A DNA stretch of 38,038 nt, taken from the NCBI GenBank assembly GCA_938041655.1, contig CALISW010000206.1, forward strand, positions 1-38,038, read 5' to 3'. The notes under the pieces are model-generated. The model ran no database searches. It had not been told where the DNA came from and saw only the letters and a list, made by a program, of their open reading frames with translations. The translations under genes and the position numbers were made by a program. The DNA comes from an uncultured Thiotrichales bacterium. Lineage in GTDB: Bacteria; Pseudomonadota; Gammaproteobacteria; CAZUMV01. Of this stretch, positions 8,671 to 21,011 are shown one piece after another; the first letter of the stretch is position 1, and every line of letters starts with the position of its first letter.

Positions 8671-8713
8671 TTTATCCTTTTCAAGTGTATTACGAGGACT
8701 GACACAGACTGTA

Positions 8714-8814
8714 ACAAACGGCTTTCTTCCTACGTTTCTTCTGATTTTGTAGGTAAAATCTACCGTTTGTCGGAAACAAACCACAGATTGTGGTATTCGG
8801 TCACATTTAACCGA
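8714..8814 (+). promoter_or_regulatory. Structured leader upstream of the PEP-CTERM gene (candidate cis-regulatory RNA or operator array)
   Basis: Nested inverted repeats ACAAACGG(8714-8721)/CCGTTTGT(8763-8770) and CCTAC(8729-8733)/GTAGG(8749-8753); competing GTTTGT(8765-8770)/ACAAAC(8776-8781); CCACA(8781-8785)/TGTGG(8789-8793); TCGGT(8797-8801)/ACCGA(8810-8814). Confidence 0.4.
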
Positions 8815-8895
8815 CGAATGGTTGTAATCAGACCTGTAATTTAGGAATATAGGCTCCATCGAGTAATTGATACAAATTTTTTTGGGAGTATTAAA

Positions 8896-9210
8896 ATGAA
8901 GAAAACACGTACTATCACGGCAACCGCATTATTAACCTTTGCTTTACTATGTATTGCACCACCTATGGCTAGCGCTGGCGATCTTGGCTTTAAGTCAGTT
9001 TCACAGGCTACTTTTGCTGTAAAAGGCAAGCAACGCTGGTGGCACCGCATCCGCAAGGGTAACTTTAAGAAGAATGACTTCAAGAAGAAGAGTACCAAGA
9101 ACTCTGTAGATAACCCTGAGCCTATCACTGGCATGCTGGCTTTAGCTGCTGCAGGTGTTGGTGGCGCTGCAATGCGCAAGCGTAAGAAGCAGGATCAAGA
9201 TCAGGAATAA
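8896..9210 (+). CDS. Small basic PEP-CTERM sorting domain protein (candidate exosortase substrate)
   Basis: Signal peptide MKKTRTITATALLTFALLCIAPPMASA, short Lys/Arg/Trp-rich mature region, C-terminal NPEPITGMLALAAAGVGGAAMRKRKK = PEP motif + transmembrane segment + basic cluster; SD-like GGGAG at 8884-8888; followed by a terminator and an exosortase-family gene. Confidence 0.85.
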   Translation: MKKTRTITATALLTFALLCIAPPMASAGDLGFKSVSQATFAVKGKQRWWHRIRKGNFKKNDFKKKSTKNSVDNPEPITGMLALAAAGVGGAAMRKRKKQDQDQE

Positions 9211-9260
9211 AGCTGTAACAGGCCGGCCACCGCTCCCTGCGGTCGGTCAGTAAAAACAAG

Positions 9261-9291
9261 AGAGCAGTGTGTTAACACTGCTCTTTTTTTT
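9261..9291 (+). terminator. Strong Rho-independent terminator after the PEP-CTERM gene
   Basis: AGAGCAGTGT-GTTA-ACACTGCTCT, 10 bp perfect stem followed by T8; a smaller hairpin ACCGC-TCCCT-GCGGT lies at 9229-9243. Confidence 0.9.
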
Positions 9292-9334
9292 CGTCTAAAA
9301 TATCGTCTCTCGCACACCAAAAATCATTAAACTT

Positions 9335-9343
9335 TGCTATAAA
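9335..9343 (+). promoter_or_regulatory. Putative extended -10 promoter of the exosortase gene (possible leaderless transcript)
   Basis: TGCTATAAA (TGn + TATAAA) ends 8 nt before the ATG at 9352; no SD-like sequence between. Confidence 0.35.
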
Positions 9344-9351
9344 ATACAGCT

Positions 9352-10236
9352 ATGGACACCAGCATACTTAAACAATATACCCAAGACTTTCTTGGCAGCC
9401 CGATACGTAATCCTCTGCTGTTACTGGCAGCCGGATTAGCGTGTATCTCGTTCATAGGTAAAGAAGCCGGTGATTTCGCCATTTCGGCGTTAACTATCAT
9501 GGCTATTTTCAGCATGCTGGCTGATACCCCTGACCAACCGGACACCAACCAGCGACATTATATTTTGGCAGTCATTGCTTTGATTGTCGTTGCTCTTGTG
9601 GTTCGCTATGTGTGGACGGTCAAAGGCTTACCACTCGCCATGCGTGGTATGCCGTTATTATTTTTAAGCAGCTACTGGTGTTATCACTATGGTGGCCAGG
9701 TCTTGAGCAAACGCTGGAAAGAGCTGTTACTGCTAGCGGTACTGTTAATTCCGGATCGCGCCCTGATGTACCCTTTTGTCGCGCCTCTGCTAGCGCTTTC
9801 TGATATGCCGAGCCTAAGTCATTTGACCGCCAATATTGCCGCCGGTGTCACCTGGATACTCGGCCTGCCTGTTGAGCTTGAAGGCACCCACATCCATGCG
9901 CCAAACGTCATTGCCAATGTATTTAAAGGCTGTGACGGCGGCCGAATTCTGGATTTCATGGTGCGCCTGACACTCATTCTAATCATCGCGTTTCCGGTGA
10001 AGAAATATAAATGGCCGATCATTTTAATAGTCAGTATGTTTCTGGGATATCTGGTTAATGTGTTTCGTGTCTCAGCGATGGTTTTCGTCGCTAACACCGG
10101 TGACATGCAGGCTTTTGATTACTGGCATACCGGTGACGGCTCGAAGATCTTCAACCTGATAGCCATCATCCTGTTCTGCCTGGTCGGTTATTTTCAAATC
10201 ACGCCAGCCAAAAGCGTGAAACAAAGTAACGCCTGA
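9352..10236 (+). CDS. Exosortase/archaeosortase-family transpeptidase
   Basis: Polytopic membrane protein with the family's ordered Cys/Arg/His signature: NVFKGCDGGRILDF (C194), LVNVFRVSAM (R239), DYWHTGDGSKIFN (H259); adjacent PEP-CTERM protein. Confidence 0.88.
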   Translation: MDTSILKQYTQDFLGSPIRNPLLLLAAGLACISFIGKEAGDFAISALTIMAIFSMLADTPDQPDTNQRHYILAVIALIVVALVVRYVWTVKGLPLAMRGMPLLFLSSYWCYHYGGQVLSKRWKELLLLAVLLIPDRALMYPFVAPLLALSDMPSLSHLTANIAAGVTWILGLPVELEGTHIHAPNVIANVFKGCDGGRILDFMVRLTLILIIAFPVKKYKWPIILIVSMFLGYLVNVFRVSAMVFVANTGDMQAFDYWHTGDGSKIFNLIAIILFCLVGYFQITPAKSVKQSNA

Positions 10237-10274
10237 CCCCGCCAGAGCCAAAATTAGACTATGATTCTGCTCCT

Positions 10275-12011
10275 ATGAGCACACAACTTAGCAGCGGCTG
10301 TCAGCAATCACTGGCGCAACTATTTGAGCAACTTCAGTCCACGCTGGAAAAAAACAAGCGTGAGGATGCCAACTGGTTACAGCAGCGACAATCGCTGGCA
10401 TTAGCCAATGCGCTACTTCGTAATCATGGCTCTAACCCCGAAAAATCATCACGACATGTCGTTGTGGTCGGACCGACACAGGTAGGAAAGAGTACCGTTA
10501 TTAATCATTTGCTTGGCTCTGAACAAGCTGGAGTCAGCGCACTCGCCGGCTACACCAGACACGCGCAGGGGTTTACGGCGGCTACTGAAACAGAGCAATA
10601 CCAACAACTATTTCCGAATTGGAAGCTGGTCGCACAAAACCAGCTGGACCCGGACAACACCAGACAGTTTTCGATCAGCACCCGCACAGACATTACTGAT
10701 CAAGCCCAACAAGAAATAGTTTATTGGGACACTCCGGATTTTGATTCAGTCAGCTCACGCTCCTATCGCACTATCGTGCCAAACCTGAGCGCAATCGCTT
10801 CGGTGTTAGTGCTGGTCTTGAGTAAAGAGAAATACGCTGACAACAGTGTCTGGGAATTTCTTAAACTGTTGGCACCACTGCAATTGCCCTTGATCATTTG
10901 CCTGAATAAATCAGAAGCCGCGCATCTGGAAGTTATCACTCGTGAAATAGAACAACGCCTGAGTGACCTTAATTGCAAGCATCAGGCAATCATCAGCTTA
11001 CCGTGGCAACATCCCGACACGCCAACTCCATCTGAACGTATCCAGGCATTACAAAGCGCTGTTAGTACTACACTGACCGCAGCACCCCAGTCACCCAAAC
11101 TGACATATTACTTTCGCGATAATTGGCAAACGTGGTTAAAACCGGCCGTGGCAGAACATCAGGCTCGAACCGAATGGCAGGAAAGTGTAGCGCAGGCATC
11201 CGGGCAACTATTGAGCTATTACCGGGAACACTATTTACAACAAACCCGATACTCAGAAGCCCTGCAGCGTGCTATTAGCAAACTACTCGAATTACTCGAA
11301 ATACCCATCCTGGCTGGTACGCTGGGCACACTGAGAAAAGTGATTACCTGGCCGGTTCGCACCCTAGGTAAAACTATTCTCGACTCGGTCTCGGATACAC
11401 GTGATAAAACACAAACCAATGAAGTTATTATTCTCACTGAGGCGTATCAAAATGCGCTGGTAGACCTGATCAACAAGGCTCAGCAGATTGAAGCAGAGGA
11501 TCACCCACAACAAAAACTCTGGTGGACATCCATAAAACAAGGACTGGATCAACAACAGCAGGACTTACAAGCACGAGCCGAACACAATATCGCACAACTC
11601 CAGGATACTTTCGAACCTGAAATTGACGCCGCTGCCAATCGTCTCTATCAACAGCTTCAGGAGCAGCCAGCCACCTTGAATAGCCTCAGAGCGGCTCGGG
11701 TAACAACTGATGCGGCTGCTTTGGCACTCGCCTTTCATACTGGAGGGTTGAGCACGACTGATTTGGTACTGGCACCAGCCTTATTATCAGTAACCTCACT
11801 GATTGCTGAAAGTGCTGTCGGGCAACACATGAAAGTGATTGAAAAAGAACTCAAAGAAAAACAATTTGAACAAGTACAGCATGATCTGGTTACACCCTGC
11901 CTGGAACAGCCAATGCTTGAGCTATCTGAGCAGCTCACAACAGCTGATCTATACAATATCTCTGAGGCAGACTTACAGGCAGCAGAACAGTGCCTGAGTG
12001 AGTTGGAATAA
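10275..12011 (+). CDS. Dynamin/Era-like P-loop GTPase with C-terminal hydrophobic/amphipathic region (GTPase 1)
   Basis: G1 VVVVGPTQVGKST (10470-10496), G3-like YWDTPDFDSV (10728-10751), G4-like CLNKSE; hydrophobic segments IPILAGTLGTL and LVLAPALLSVTSLIAESAVG; begins 38 nt after the exosortase stop. Confidence 0.75.
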   Translation: MSTQLSSGCQQSLAQLFEQLQSTLEKNKREDANWLQQRQSLALANALLRNHGSNPEKSSRHVVVVGPTQVGKSTVINHLLGSEQAGVSALAGYTRHAQGFTAATETEQYQQLFPNWKLVAQNQLDPDNTRQFSISTRTDITDQAQQEIVYWDTPDFDSVSSRSYRTIVPNLSAIASVLVLVLSKEKYADNSVWEFLKLLAPLQLPLIICLNKSEAAHLEVITREIEQRLSDLNCKHQAIISLPWQHPDTPTPSERIQALQSAVSTTLTAAPQSPKLTYYFRDNWQTWLKPAVAEHQARTEWQESVAQASGQLLSYYREHYLQQTRYSEALQRAISKLLELLEIPILAGTLGTLRKVITWPVRTLGKTILDSVSDTRDKTQTNEVIILTEAYQNALVDLINKAQQIEAEDHPQQKLWWTSIKQGLDQQQQDLQARAEHNIAQLQDTFEPEIDAAANRLYQQLQEQPATLNSLRAARVTTDAAALALAFHTGGLSTTDLVLAPALLSVTSLIAESAVGQHMKVIEKELKEKQFEQVQHDLVTPCLEQPMLELSEQLTTADLYNISEADLQAAEQCLSELE

Positions 12012-13591
12012 TGCAGGATTTTAACCAACGCCATCAACAGTTAAGCAGCTGGGTGAAGCAAACCATCTCCGAGGGCTGGCTCACAGATCAGGCACAATTG
12101 AAATTCGATCAACTGGAGACCGCCAGCGCCGAGCAATTATTCAGTAATACAGCTATACGTCCATTAATAGTGGCGTTCTTTGGAGGCACAGGCACCGGTA
12201 AAAGCAGTCTTCTGAACAGACTGGCTGACGCCGATATCGCAGTAACCGGTGCTGCCAGACCAACCTCACATGAAGTCACTATCTACTTGCATCAAGACCA
12301 TCAGTTAAACGAAAGTTTAAAGAGACTGCCGATGCAACAAACGAGGATTCATTACCACCAGCTGGCACAACGCCAGCAAGTTGCCTGGCTCGATATGCCG
12401 GATTTTGACAGCGTTGAAAGTGCCAACCGAGATCTGGTTGAGCAATGGTTACCTTATATAGATTATCTGGTCTATGTCGTGAGCCCGGAACGCTATCATG
12501 ATGATCTGGGCTGGCAAATCCTGCAACAACGCCAACAACGACACCAATGGTTGTTTGTCATGAACCATTGGGATGAAGGCAAACCTGAGCAATATGAAGA
12601 CTTTCGCTCAAAACTCGATAAGGCCGGTTTTTCCAAGGCTGAATTATTGCGAACCAGCTGTGCAGCCAAACCAATAGATGATGAATTTGAAAAACTGGAA
12701 CAACACCTGAATCAAGCTATAGCGAGCAACGGCATCGAACAGTTACAAAAAACCGGAGCATTGGCACGCTTGCATGATCTGGATAAATTGGTGGCTGACT
12801 ACAGCCAGACACTAGGCACTCAAGCACAATGGCAAGCATTGTCCAAGTCACAACAGACGCTGTCTGCCACACATAACAAAGGACTGGTTTCGCTGCTGCG
12901 CGATCAGGCACAAGGTCTGCTGCAACCGTTGCAGGCAATTGAAGAAGACACACCCTGGTTCAGAAGCAAACAAAATCCAACGCGTTTGCCGAGTACCGGA
13001 GACATGATCGAATACCTGGGCAATCAACGTTGTGGTAATTATCTGCAGCGTATTATGCGCGAACAAGGGCAACATTGTCGTAAGCAACTATTACCTGAGC
13101 AAGCACTGACCAGAAAACTGTCAGGCCTTGCTGAAGAAACCACCCTGTCGCTTGAAGATAATATGACCACGTCCACGGCTAAAGCCATGGCCAAGCCCGG
13201 TACTGTCATACAACGTGCTGTCTATAAGCTTTGTAACTGGTTGAGCTTTTTGCTGCCTTTAGCTCTAGCTATCTGGGCAGGCTGGTTTTTATTTGCTCAC
13301 TATCGCGAAGGTATGCAAGGGAATGTCGAATTTTTAGGCACCAGCTTTATCACCAACACCTTGATGTTGATGGGTCTGGGCTGGTTTATTCCATGGCTGA
13401 TTAAAAGAAAAATTCAACCATCTTTAGTCTCGAGTTTCAAACGCGGCGTATTTAATGCCATCGAACAAACCGGCTTAGAGCTTGAGCAAAAACTCAATCT
13501 CGCTTGCGAGAAAGTGATTGAGGAACATCAAGATGTGCAGGACAAGCTGGCGCAGCTACAGCAAGATGCACCCACTAAAGAAGAGATTTAG
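12011..13591 (+). CDS. Second P-loop GTPase, related to the preceding one, with C-terminal transmembrane segments (GTPase 2)
   Basis: G1 FFGGTGTGKSS (12182-12208), G3-like LDMPDFDSV (12392-12415), G4-like MNHWDEG; two TM segments (LSFLLPLALAIWAGWFLFAHY, TLMLMGLGWFIPWLI). Start overlaps the previous stop (TAATG). Confidence 0.75.
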   Translation: MQDFNQRHQQLSSWVKQTISEGWLTDQAQLKFDQLETASAEQLFSNTAIRPLIVAFFGGTGTGKSSLLNRLADADIAVTGAARPTSHEVTIYLHQDHQLNESLKRLPMQQTRIHYHQLAQRQQVAWLDMPDFDSVESANRDLVEQWLPYIDYLVYVVSPERYHDDLGWQILQQRQQRHQWLFVMNHWDEGKPEQYEDFRSKLDKAGFSKAELLRTSCAAKPIDDEFEKLEQHLNQAIASNGIEQLQKTGALARLHDLDKLVADYSQTLGTQAQWQALSKSQQTLSATHNKGLVSLLRDQAQGLLQPLQAIEEDTPWFRSKQNPTRLPSTGDMIEYLGNQRCGNYLQRIMREQGQHCRKQLLPEQALTRKLSGLAEETTLSLEDNMTTSTAKAMAKPGTVIQRAVYKLCNWLSFLLPLALAIWAGWFLFAHYREGMQGNVEFLGTSFITNTLMLMGLGWFIPWLIKRKIQPSLVSSFKRGVFNAIEQTGLELEQKLNLACEKVIEEHQDVQDKLAQLQQDAPTKEEI

Positions 13592-16115: not shown

Positions 16116-16555
16116 CAGCTATGCCACTCAATCACATGTTCAACCAGTTGCTGAGGATGCACTCCCAACTCAGACACGACTTTATCAGTCACCGGTATCC
16201 CTGCATCCCGCATGGCGTCACGCGAGCCTGTAAGCAATGGATGCCAGACTGGCAACGGTTTCTTCTCAGCCAGCAAGCGATACGCGCAAGTCGCCGGTGC
16301 AAAGTAACATTGCTCAAGATTTTCTGGACTCAACACCATACATTCAGGCACCAAGGTGACTCGTTCTGTATACACTTCACAGTGGCATTGCTCCTGCTCC
16401 AGGTATTGACACACCACATTGGTCACTGCGATTTCACCACTGTCTTCATCTTCAAGTTTGAGTCGACAACACAGACCGCAGCCATCGCACAGAGACTCCC
16501 ACTCGCTACGACTCATTTCCGTGAGTGATTTACTTTCCCAAAAATGCGTAGTCAT
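16115..16555 (-). CDS. ycgN: YcgN/UPF0260-family cysteine-cluster protein
   Basis: [54 protein letters not shown]...[21 protein letters not shown]. Confidence 0.88.
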
Positions 16556-17802
16556 TAAAAGAAATAACCCAGTCTGAATTCTACGTAGTCATCCTGCTGG
16601 ATAAAATACTGCGGGTCAGTAACATCAGAGATATCAAACAACTGGGCTTGTACCGATGCTTTGAAATGAGAACCTATTCTTCTACTACCTTCTATTCTGA
16701 AAAAAGCACTGTCATTATCGAGATCAAGATAACCTCCGGCTAACAGTTCGGTACTCTGCTCATCATTAAAACCCAGTCGAATACCGGCAAACAGATCATT
16801 CTGAAATATCGCGTTGTTGCTTTGACCACGTGTGTCATGGTGATACTCCAGCAACACACCTATATCCAGACCTTGCCCTAAATCAAAAAAGGTATATTCA
16901 AAGCCTGCTACCAGCGCCTGATAATCTTCAGGATTTCCACTACGGGCAATCGCTTCAAGCTTGAGTAACCATGAATCCAGTGTGGCCTGCAGGTCCAGAC
17001 CAACCTGATGGATTTGATTGTAACGAGGGGTAAGCACCGGTCCATCTGTTGAATTCTGCAATATCAACTCAGGTTCGCGCGCGGTGCCATTAAAGTAGTA
17101 AAGACCATAATCCCAGAAATTCGCCACAGTACCACTCAAGCGAATCGCCGCATCCACATGACCTGTCTCTATCTCAGATTCATACTGGGCGGGTGCAAAG
17201 CCAATTGTGGTTGTCGTTAAAAACTCGGGATTGTCGGTGTCCACAACCACAGGAGCGCGTAACCTTCCGTTAACACCAGCAAAAGTACGCTCACGAAAAT
17301 ATGGCAAGACAAAAAAGTTAAGCGCACCCCAATCCTGTAACCAGGTGATATTTACCATTGGTTGACCTAGCTTGTCTTCGGTATCGATATCCTCAACAAA
17401 ATCTGTTTGGTTAATGATATCAACCAGGTGCTGTGACTCGGTCACCCCCCAGAATACTTTCCCGACTCCTACCCGCCACTCCCAGTCACCACTGGCATAG
17501 GAAATCAGCAATTCACGAACATCGGCATGCGTGCGCTCGTCATCATGCTGATCGTAACGTACAAAGGGAGTGAAACTAAGGGTCAAGTCCTGATTACCCA
17601 TCAGGCTGGTAAAATAATTAATCTCGGCACTAATAGAAGAATACAGCTCTTCTTGATTGGAGAACAAAGCAGTCTCGGGGAAATAACGCGCTTCCAGAAT
17701 CAATTCACCACTCACTTCTGCAACAGCACTGCCCAGACTGGCCAGAGAAAGACCAATAATTATCGTGGTGGTAGAGACGAGTTTTAAAAGCATCCTGCAC
17801 AT
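16555..17802 (-). CDS. Predicted outer-membrane beta-barrel protein
   Basis: Signal peptide ending ...GSAVA, alternating beta-strand character, terminal aromatic residues (FRLGYFF); next to LolA-like and RND genes. Confidence 0.75.
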   Translation of the reverse strand: MCRMLLKLVSTTTIIIGLSLASLGSAVAEVSGELILEARYFPETALFSNQEELYSSISAEINYFTSLMGNQDLTLSFTPFVRYDQHDDERTHADVRELLISYASGDWEWRVGVGKVFWGVTESQHLVDIINQTDFVEDIDTEDKLGQPMVNITWLQDWGALNFFVLPYFRERTFAGVNGRLRAPVVVDTDNPEFLTTTTIGFAPAQYESEIETGHVDAAIRLSGTVANFWDYGLYYFNGTAREPELILQNSTDGPVLTPRYNQIHQVGLDLQATLDSWLLKLEAIARSGNPEDYQALVAGFEYTFFDLGQGLDIGVLLEYHHDTRGQSNNAIFQNDLFAGIRLGFNDEQSTELLAGGYLDLDNDSAFFRIEGSRRIGSHFKASVQAQLFDISDVTDPQYFIQQDDYVEFRLGYFF

Positions 17803-17844
17803 GCCGCGTATTATTGCAGATTTAGACTACTACTGCGCGATCAA

Positions 17845-18624
17845 TCAGCGCCCTTTGGAAAGCTTATCTTTAACGAAATCACGATCAACCAGGCCCGTGC
17901 CAAATTGATAGTTGGACCAAAACAATGTGGTCGATTTTTTTGTTTGGTGGTTGAGCATGTGCATTTCAGCTGGTCGCCAATGCTTGCCAGCATATTGTTG
18001 ATAGCCTTTCACTGACAGCGTTTTCAACAAACTATTCTTGCGGTCATAATAGTCAGTTCGCAATACCAGTAGTTGCTCTCGTTCTATCCAAACGACTTGT
18101 CTGGTATAACCGGAGTGATCGTATTCGGGATAACGTTCAACTACATCACAAACCATTCCTCCACACGATTCACTGCGTAGAAACTTGTAACGATACTTGT
18201 CAACTTCCTGCGAAGATAAATCCTCAAACGCAAACTCACTGCCTACAAACGGACCAGACTTGTTTTTAGAAGAAATTCTTTTAACCCGCTTAAGCGATGG
18301 CAAAAACAACCATTGATCATCGGCTCGAAGACTATGGGTATGACTCAACAACGCCGTATTACGAATATCTGCCGGTGCTTTAAAGGTGAGTAGTACTTTG
18401 TCACCATCACCCTCTACTTCCAGTCGCTGTGAACCAAGCTCCCTTTCTGCTTGATTCCCATTACTGTCACGCAACACCATTTTCAGGTCGGCGGTTACAT
18501 CAGCAAAACCGGAATGACGCTGGTCGGCTGCAGTGGCGATCTTAAAGCCCTTTGCTTCGGCTGTTTCAGCCTGCAATGGATTTAGCGCCAATATCAGTAC
18601 AATAAAAATAAGGATTTTATGCAT
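17845..18624 (-). CDS. Outer-membrane lipoprotein-sorting-like (LolA-fold) periplasmic protein
   Basis: Signal peptide MHKILIFIVLILALNPLQA; WLFLPSLKRVKRISSKNKSGPFVGSEFAFEDLSS is typical of LolA-like proteins linked to RND exporters. Confidence 0.8.
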   Translation of the reverse strand: MHKILIFIVLILALNPLQAETAEAKGFKIATAADQRHSGFADVTADLKMVLRDSNGNQAERELGSQRLEVEGDGDKVLLTFKAPADIRNTALLSHTHSLRADDQWLFLPSLKRVKRISSKNKSGPFVGSEFAFEDLSSQEVDKYRYKFLRSESCGGMVCDVVERYPEYDHSGYTRQVVWIEREQLLVLRTDYYDRKNSLLKTLSVKGYQQYAGKHWRPAEMHMLNHQTKKSTTLFWSNYQFGTGLVDRDFVKDKLSKGR

Positions 18625-18716
18625 ATCAGGATTTGTTCGTATTGGTAATCTTCAGACTACAATAATATGGGTTTATTCAATAATTTAGTGTTATTAAACA
18701 ATATTTTAATGTTATT

Positions 18717-21011
18717 TCACTCTGATTGTGATGCAGGCCTGTCTATTAACAGTAATAGCGGTGGTAATAATAGAAAATCCAGCAATAACGCCGCCGCAAT
18801 AGTAATTGCCGTCAACAAACCCATCTCTGCATTCAAGGCAAAATGCGAAAAGGTCAGAACCAGAAAACCAAGTACCAACACCACGGTATTTACCACCAAG
18901 GCGACACCTACGGTATCGAAGGCATAGCGTATTGCATCTTGAGGCGATAGATTCGCCTCATTACGAGCACGCTGGTACTTACTTAAAAAGTGTATCGTAT
19001 CATCCACTACAATTCCCAAGGTCACCGCTGCTACTACCGATGTAGCCAGACCCACCACCCCGTGCAAAATAGCCCACACCCCAAAACCGACTAACGCCGG
19101 TGCGATATTCGGAATCATACTGATCAAGCCTAACTTGAACGACTTCAATGCCACTATTAATACCAGTGACACCAACAATAATGCCACCAGAGTTCCACGC
19201 AACATACTCGCTACATTACGTTTACTAATTTGTGCAAACATGGTTGCAGGACCGGCACCAACCGAATCCAGCAATGGCGTGTTTTCATGCAGCCATAACT
19301 GTGATCGTTTTTCGAACTCGTTAATCTCACGACTATTCAAGGTATCAATATTGACGCCCACCTTGGCAGAGGTCTTATCCAGATCAACATGATTCGTCAG
19401 ATCGATACCGTAGGGCAAGGACAACTCATACAACAGCAAGTACTGCGCTGCCTGGTCACTACTCTCGGGTAGACGATAATAGTCAGTACGATCCTGATGC
19501 AGATTCTTATTCAGTCTCTTTAATGTTTGAGTAATTAAAGAAACGTGCATTACCTCTGGTTGTTGCTGCAACCAGCTATCAAACGCATCCAGCTGCTGCA
19601 AAAACTCCGGGTCAGTAACTTTTTTCTTCGCTGGCGCGGTGAATGAATAATTATGTGAATAGACGCCCGTTAGTTTCTCAACGATACGATCCGAGTCATG
19701 CCGGATTTCGGTTGACTCATCAAAGTAGTCAATCAAAACATCACTTAACTCTATGTTGCGTGTTTGTAGTGCAGCAAATACCACCAAAGCCATCAAACAA
19801 CAGAATAATAGCTTGTAGTTACGAATAACAAACTCAGCTACTGTCTTCATTGGCACATTAAAACCACCCATCGCAGCAGCCGGTCCCGCCGATACAGCAG
19901 AGGCTATTACCGGTAATAATGTAACACTCAGGAAAAAAGCGATGATTGCACCGAACGCGACGATAGTACCCAGTTCCCGGAACGGCGGGGAGTCACTGAA
20001 ATTCAGCGCGAAAAAACCAATAGCTGTAGTGACCGACGTTAAACAGATCGGCCAGAAATTAATTCTGAGACTTTCCTGAATAGCCTCATACTTACCCATA
20101 CCCTTCGCCATGAATTGCTTCATTCCCACCAGCAAATGCACTGCATCAGCTACAGCTACTGTGATGATAATAGTAGGTGCCATAATCGAGACAGAATTAA
20201 TATTGAAACCCAACCAACCCGACAAACCCAACGCAGCAACAATTGCCAGCAACACCAGCACAATCGTGGTAATCACCAACATCAATGAACGCAACAACAG
20301 CCACAAACACAAAGCGATCACTAACAACATCAGTGGTAACAAGGTTTTAATGTCTTTTAAAGCGTGACTGGAAAAAGCATCATTGAGTGGAATGACACCA
20401 CTAATGTGGAAATCAATATCGGGATGACTGGCGCGTAATGCTGCCAGCATGGTATTACTTGCTGCAATTACCTCCTTGGGTTCTTTGAGTGGCTCTATTA
20501 AGGGCAACTCCAAAGTGACGTTGACTGCCGCTGCACTCATATCCGCTGAGATCAATCGCCCGAGCAACTCAGGCTCATTGACTGCAACCTCTGCTATGGC
20601 GGCAAGCTCTTCGGCTGAATTACCCAACGGCTGGGAAACCAGGTCCTCGACAATCAACTCATCTTCTACGGCATAGGTGTGCTGAAAGTTAGTGAGTGAG
20701 TCAACCCGGCGTGAGTACGGGATTTGCCAGGATAGTTCTGTGAGTTGGTAAATCGCCAGCAACGTCTCTTGATTAAACACCTCACCCGATTTGGGCAAGA
20801 GCATGATTAATAAATTGTCACTCTTGGTGTAAGTTTCCTGCAACTGATTAAAAGTGTTGAGTTGCGGGTTATCCTCGCTAAAGAAAATACGATAATCACT
20901 TTCAATCGAGAGTTTGGTAACCCCCGCGCAAAGCAATGCAGTGACTAACAACGTCAGCACTACCGTGCTGGCACGATTGACCAGCATCCAGTCAATCCAG
21001 GATGTTTTCAT
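18717..21011 (-). CDS. RND superfamily / MMPL-type exporter
   Basis: About 12 TM segments with duplicated architecture; ISIESDYRIFFSEDNPQL periplasmic start, VADAVHLLVGMKQF and GIVVDDTIHFLSKYQRARNEA motifs of TM4/TM10 in this superfamily. Confidence 0.88.
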   Translation of the reverse strand: MKTSWIDWMLVNRASTVVLTLLVTALLCAGVTKLSIESDYRIFFSEDNPQLNTFNQLQETYTKSDNLLIMLLPKSGEVFNQETLLAIYQLTELSWQIPYSRRVDSLTNFQHTYAVEDELIVEDLVSQPLGNSAEELAAIAEVAVNEPELLGRLISADMSAAAVNVTLELPLIEPLKEPKEVIAASNTMLAALRASHPDIDFHISGVIPLNDAFSSHALKDIKTLLPLMLLVIALCLWLLLRSLMLVITTIVLVLLAIVAALGLSGWLGFNINSVSIMAPTIIITVAVADAVHLLVGMKQFMAKGMGKYEAIQESLRINFWPICLTSVTTAIGFFALNFSDSPPFRELGTIVAFGAIIAFFLSVTLLPVIASAVSAGPAAAMGGFNVPMKTVAEFVIRNYKLLFCCLMALVVFAALQTRNIELSDVLIDYFDESTEIRHDSDRIVEKLTGVYSHNYSFTAPAKKKVTDPEFLQQLDAFDSWLQQQPEVMHVSLITQTLKRLNKNLHQDRTDYYRLPESSDQAAQYLLLYELSLPYGIDLTNHVDLDKTSAKVGVNIDTLNSREINEFEKRSQLWLHENTPLLDSVGAGPATMFAQISKRNVASMLRGTLVALLLVSLVLIVALKSFKLGLISMIPNIAPALVGFGVWAILHGVVGLATSVVAAVTLGIVVDDTIHFLSKYQRARNEANLSPQDAIRYAFDTVGVALVVNTVVLVLGFLVLTFSHFALNAEMGLLTAITIAAALLLDFLLLPPLLLLIDRPASQSE

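Follow-up and report, generated by a model that had tools for sequence, protein, structure and literature searches.

Gene content of the locus

The window (the whole stretch of DNA analyzed, 38,038 nucleotides) belongs to the draft genome of an uncultured Thiotrichales bacterium (2.93 Mb, 84.6% complete; referred to here as G000). A first-pass annotation had proposed a self-contained exosortase system in which a small PEP-CTERM protein, an exosortase, and two GTPases act together. The four open reading frames are arranged as that annotation described: all lie on the plus strand, with a 38-nucleotide gap between the exosortase and GTPase 1 genes and a 1-base overlap between the two GTPase genes (Table 1). 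In addition to these genes, the window neighbors of the exosortase gene are rpoD, a tRNA gene, and tat genes. On inspection, no exopolysaccharide (EPS) genes were recognized among the window open reading frames, as had been stated; Wza-type export genes are present elsewhere in this genome and in those of its relatives. The closest relatives used for comparison were a congener, also a metagenome-assembled uncultured Thiotrichales bacterium (G001; 71% complete), and a member of a different genus in the same family (G002).

Table 1. Coding and noncoding features of the locus (window positions)
Feature	Position	Strand	Description
Conserved noncoding block upstream of substrate gene	8761..8859	+	Defined by alignment with the congener; probably regulatory
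Substrate gene	8896..9210	+	104-aa PEP-CTERM protein
GC-rich hairpin just 5' of terminator	9225..9248	+	Analogous hairpin in sister genus
Intrinsic terminator in substrate/exosortase gap	9258..9287	+	13-bp stem, T run
Exosortase gene	9352..10236	+	294 aa, single-domain, cyanoexosortase A-like
Dynamin-like GTPase 1 gene	10275..12011	+	578 aa; judged outside the exosortase system
Dynamin-like GTPase 2 gene	12011..13591	+	526 aa; pairs with GTPase 1; two hydrophobic segments at the C terminus; judged outside the exosortase system

A cyanoexosortase A-like enzyme in a gammaproteobacterium

The exosortase scored 100.5 bits against PF09721 (cutoff, 25.7) and 40.4 bits against TIGR04178 (cutoff, 23). 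The Cys/Arg/His signature noted at first pass was borne out, with Cys194, Arg239, and His259 aligning in 51/51 compared exosortases. With these ordered residues and eight hydrophobic segments, the protein has the features of the superfamily, whose members have about eight transmembrane segments. The best-scoring named subfamily was cyanoexosortase A (TIGR03763, CrtA), matched at 116.1 bits over nearly the full model. This score lies below the 150-bit cutoff of that model, and the enzyme passes the cutoff of no named subfamily. Like cyanoexosortase A, it is a single-domain enzyme of ∼290 aa with the Cys/Arg/His residues; unlike it, the window enzyme has one adjacent, tiny substrate. Another difference is that neither of two CrtA-associated genes, encoding an HpsJ-like protein and a TIGR03790 protein, adjoins the window gene, whereas both accompany the CrtA-like gene of another gammaproteobacterial genome, G241. 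There, a cyanobacterial-type cassette (L073, 8332 to 11341) lies downstream of a penicillin-binding-protein-like gene, with the cyanoexosortase A-like gene followed by the TIGR03790 and HpsJ-like genes.

The EpsH/XrtA systems of Proteobacteria (TIGR02602/TIGR03109) share with this locus the PF09721 fold family and a PEP-CTERM substrate whose gene is transcribed singly and has a large region upstream. In contrast to these systems, the window enzyme lacks an EpsI extension (most gammaproteobacterial matches lie in frames of ∼500 to 570 aa), and there is one substrate rather than many, without a surrounding EPS locus or the GG-N10-GC/TTTACA elements.

Among 369 sampled gammaproteobacterial genomes, a TIGR03763 score above 100 bits was found in three (G000, G001, and G241), and in a search of 399 genomes of the phylum (E up to 1e-15), a CrtA-like exosortase was retrieved from G000 only. 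In a tree built without cyanobacterial sequences, the three enzymes grouped together on long branches (support, 0.91). No plasmid-borne relatives of the exosortase or of GTPase 1 were found. The enzyme probably forms a dedicated pair with its neighboring substrate, within an unnamed subfamily that resembles cyanoexosortase A.

The substrate and its conservation

The signal peptide of the small protein ends at about residue 26 and is followed by a cationic segment of ∼50 aa (pI 10.6, charge about +9). The tail consists of NPEPITG (PEP at residues 74 to 76), a hydrophobic stretch, and MRKRKK. The protein thus carries the full set of PEP-CTERM features, namely, a signal peptide, a near-invariant PEP, a hydrophobic stretch, and a terminal basic cluster. 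Its tail narrowly misses the cutoffs of the curated models: 16.8 bits against PF07589 (cutoff, 20.7) and 14.6 bits against TIGR02595 (cutoff, 16). The C-terminal helix is mildly hydrophobic and is not called by a simple hydropathy scan. A 38%-identical homolog in G002 retains the signal peptide and each element of the tail (NPEPITG, the hydrophobic stretch, and MRKRKK), with conservation peaking in the tail. Because these features are kept in another genus, the tail is not a chance resemblance, and the initial description of a signal peptide followed by a PEP-CTERM tail stands.

The substrates of G000 and G001 share 99% identity, compared with 87% for the exosortases and 78 to 79% for the GTPases. 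The substrate gene, with a dN of 0.012 and a dS of 0.64 (dN/dS about 0.02), is thus under strong purifying selection, contrary to what a relic would show. Codon-use bias, considered as a sign of high expression and set aside, was 0.67 for the substrate gene versus 0.65 to 0.78 for other genes.

The substrate-exosortase pair was seen in three genomes, all from one family. The gene order in G001 is identical to that in the window (rpoD, tRNA, substrate, exosortase, GTPase 1, GTPase 2). In G002, the gene directly after the substrate homolog encodes an exosortase of which 55 N-terminal residues are present; because the contig ends there, an intact enzyme cannot be established for this genome. The G002 pair adjoins an AMP-ligase-like gene instead of rpoD, indicating that substrate and exosortase have stayed together despite changed surroundings.

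Noncoding elements flanking the substrate gene

Upstream of the substrate gene, 71 nucleotides (8761 to 8831) are identical between G000 and G001, compared with 53 to 74% identity at third codon positions of neighboring genes. This block is single copy in its own genome. Because it matched no Rfam family and its folding only weakly exceeded that of shuffled sequences (z = -2.3 in the window and z = -1.3 in G001), we regard it as probable regulatory DNA, either a promoter/operator or a structured leader. Neither motif 1 (TTTACA-ended) nor motif 2 (GG-N10-GC) occurs in positions 8671 to 8895, and a sigma-54/PrsR-type promoter for the substrate gene was rejected on the absence of its motif.

The gap downstream of the substrate gene (9211 to 9300) folds better than shuffled sequences (z = -5.1). 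The corresponding gap in G002 has the same two-hairpin layout in a different sequence, including a hairpin at L071:165-240 (z = -3.4). A plain substrate-exosortase operon is unlikely because of the strong terminator hairpin that lies in this gap; no plus-strand terminator was found between the exosortase and GTPase 1 genes. The layout matches that reported for PEP-CTERM genes, which mostly form operons of one gene, preceded by a large intergenic region (PMC1569441).

Number of substrates and enzymes

Within the 84.6%-complete draft, profile searches of the genome retrieved one exosortase and one detectable substrate, in keeping with the one-to-one system first proposed. The best PEP-CTERM match was the neighboring substrate, at 19.2 bits. 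At E values up to 10, with two models in the window's own genome and one model in the two relatives, no other C-terminal PEP tail was found; the remaining weak matches were either internal to longer proteins or came from a tiny open frame lacking a PEP tail. Further substrates may be absent from view because the two congeneric genomes are 84.6% and 71% complete, and other unusual tails could escape the models since the substrate itself scores under the curated cutoffs.

A single substrate is unusual yet precedented: in the 2006 survey by Haft and co-workers, the number of PEP-CTERM domains per genome ranged from 1 to 65 (median, 8), and Rhodospirillum rubrum was noted to have one PEP-CTERM gene (PMC1569441). 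The EpsH system of R. rubrum, with one exosortase and one detected substrate per genome, thus provides a precedent for a 1:1 ratio of enzyme to substrate. It differs from the window in that it lies in a 40-kb EPS-related region and that its PEP-CTERM gene is preceded by a motif-1 element (PMC1569441).

The two GTPases form a separate dynamin-like pair

Pfam analysis confirmed that both large proteins are GTPases (Dynamin_N/MMR_HSR1). Their AlphaFold models (mean pLDDT, 85 and 79) have helical C-terminal parts, and the top Foldseek matches of both are bacterial dynamins (BDLP and CjDLP1/2). We assign only the broad fold class, given the weak sequence similarity and the low whole-chain TM-scores (0.2 to 0.4). 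A GTPase domain, a long helical stalk, and tandem genes are all present, as in paired bacterial dynamin-like proteins. CjDLP1/2 of Campylobacter and LeoA/BC are likewise two related large GTPases encoded in tandem (PMC6104087 and PMC4159319), and bacterial dynamins are mostly encoded as pairs within operons (PMC6104087).

Homologs of GTPase 1 were found in 24 of the 369 sampled genomes of the class, counted outside the genus, and GTPase 2 adjoins GTPase 1 in 21 of these 24. In G002, the GTPase pair begins directly after rnfG, on a contig other than that of the substrate-exosortase pair, and the sole exosortase is the 55-residue fragment beside the substrate homolog. In the other 23 genomes, no exosortase lies near the GTPases: 14 have no exosortase at all, and 9 have one elsewhere, which is on the same contig in G204 (about 53 kb away) and G249 (534 kb away) and on other contigs in the rest. 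Since these neighborhoods lack an exosortase and the structural matches are to paired dynamins, the GTPases are an independent module, and their place behind the exosortase gene is a genus-level accident.

Alternative explanations

The proposal that both GTPases belong to the sorting system, where they would serve in delivering or localizing the sorted peptide or in remodeling membrane for it, draws on the tight gene order, which is kept in the congener and uninterrupted by a terminator, and on the known action of dynamin-like proteins on membranes (PMC6104087). The neighborhood data largely refute it, with the sister-genus pair behind rnfG on a separate contig and the homologs in 23 further genomes lacking a nearby exosortase, and we now consider it very unlikely. 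Comparison of neighborhoods divides the first-pass proposal of a self-contained system: the adjacency of substrate and exosortase is kept across two genera and this pair looks genuine and dedicated, whereas adjacency to the GTPases is lost in the sister genus and their role as a third part falls away. Even less probable is that the small protein is encoded next to the exosortase by chance, as a relic or as a protein with no link to that enzyme. Its low PEP-CTERM model scores would fit such an origin, but the gene is under strong purifying selection, its upstream block and terminator are conserved, and its homolog in another genus again stands beside an exosortase, with the tail as the best-conserved part.

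A more serious contender, although still unlikely in our judgment, is a general exosortase serving several substrates, some of them with unrecognized tails or encoded in the part of the genome that the draft lacks. Many substrates are usual in exosortase-encoding genomes, as in the survey cited above and in Nostoc punctiforme with 35 (PMC12188702); here, even the neighboring substrate falls under the cutoffs, and the genome is incomplete. Against this stand the permissive searches, which retrieved no second C-terminal PEP tail from this genome or its two relatives, and the adjacency of substrate and enzyme across genera, in contrast to scattered multisubstrate systems. The reading that we consider likely is a minimal exosortase unit of one enzyme and one substrate beside an unrelated dynamin-like pair.

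Proposed mechanism and implications

For the one-enzyme, one-substrate unit, the EpsH model for PEP-CTERM processing (PMC1569441) suggests by analogy that the 104-aa preprotein would be exported by Sec, its C-terminal helix anchoring it in the inner membrane, with the PEP motif shown to the exosortase at the periplasmic face. The exosortase, with Cys194 as the putative nucleophile alongside Arg239 and His259, would then cut at the PEP motif, and the cationic segment would be transferred or released to the cell surface or to exopolysaccharide, where its charge may favor binding to acidic polymers. Passage to the surface is also suggested by a Nostoc mutant in which loss of cyanoexosortase B altered extracellular PEP-CTERM proteins and abolished biofilm formation (PMC12188702); the floc-forming protein PepA offers an analogy for the substrate (PMC9850573). 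An exopolysaccharide acceptor is possible because Wza-type export genes occur elsewhere in these genomes. The substrate may be expressed from its own short transcript, ending at the strong terminator, and the exosortase by read-through or from a second promoter, an arrangement that would yield more substrate than enzyme.

A bolder reading, for and against which we find the case evenly balanced, is that the enzyme represents an unnamed exosortase subfamily, a cyanobacterial-type enzyme in Gammaproteobacteria, and that the pair is a true one-substrate unit outside EPS loci that matures a tiny cationic peptide, with the conserved terminator setting the substrate far above the enzyme.

Little is known so far about exosortase chemistry or the final acceptor, in part because hosts typically have many substrates. 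With one 104-aa substrate beside its enzyme, transfer of two genes to a laboratory strain is feasible and would permit direct questions about the position of the cut and the partner joined to the new C terminus. The analysis also does away with a misleading connection of exosortases to dynamin-like GTPases.

Additional observations on the GTPase loci

A defense role for the GTPases was considered and set aside, as matches to LeoA and similar models were weak and confined to the GTPase domain. Outside the genus, the GTPase-pair loci in the 24 genomes are L074 to L097 (e.g., L085, 8491 to 11789). In several other genomes, the pair lies near ubiA-type and comF-type genes, and in several it lies between them. 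On the minus strand of the window (16555 to 21011), adjacent genes encode 415-aa and 259-aa proteins with signal-peptide-like N termini and a 764-aa RND-type membrane protein; an RND homolog 47% identical to the last of these is encoded near the GTPase pair in L080.
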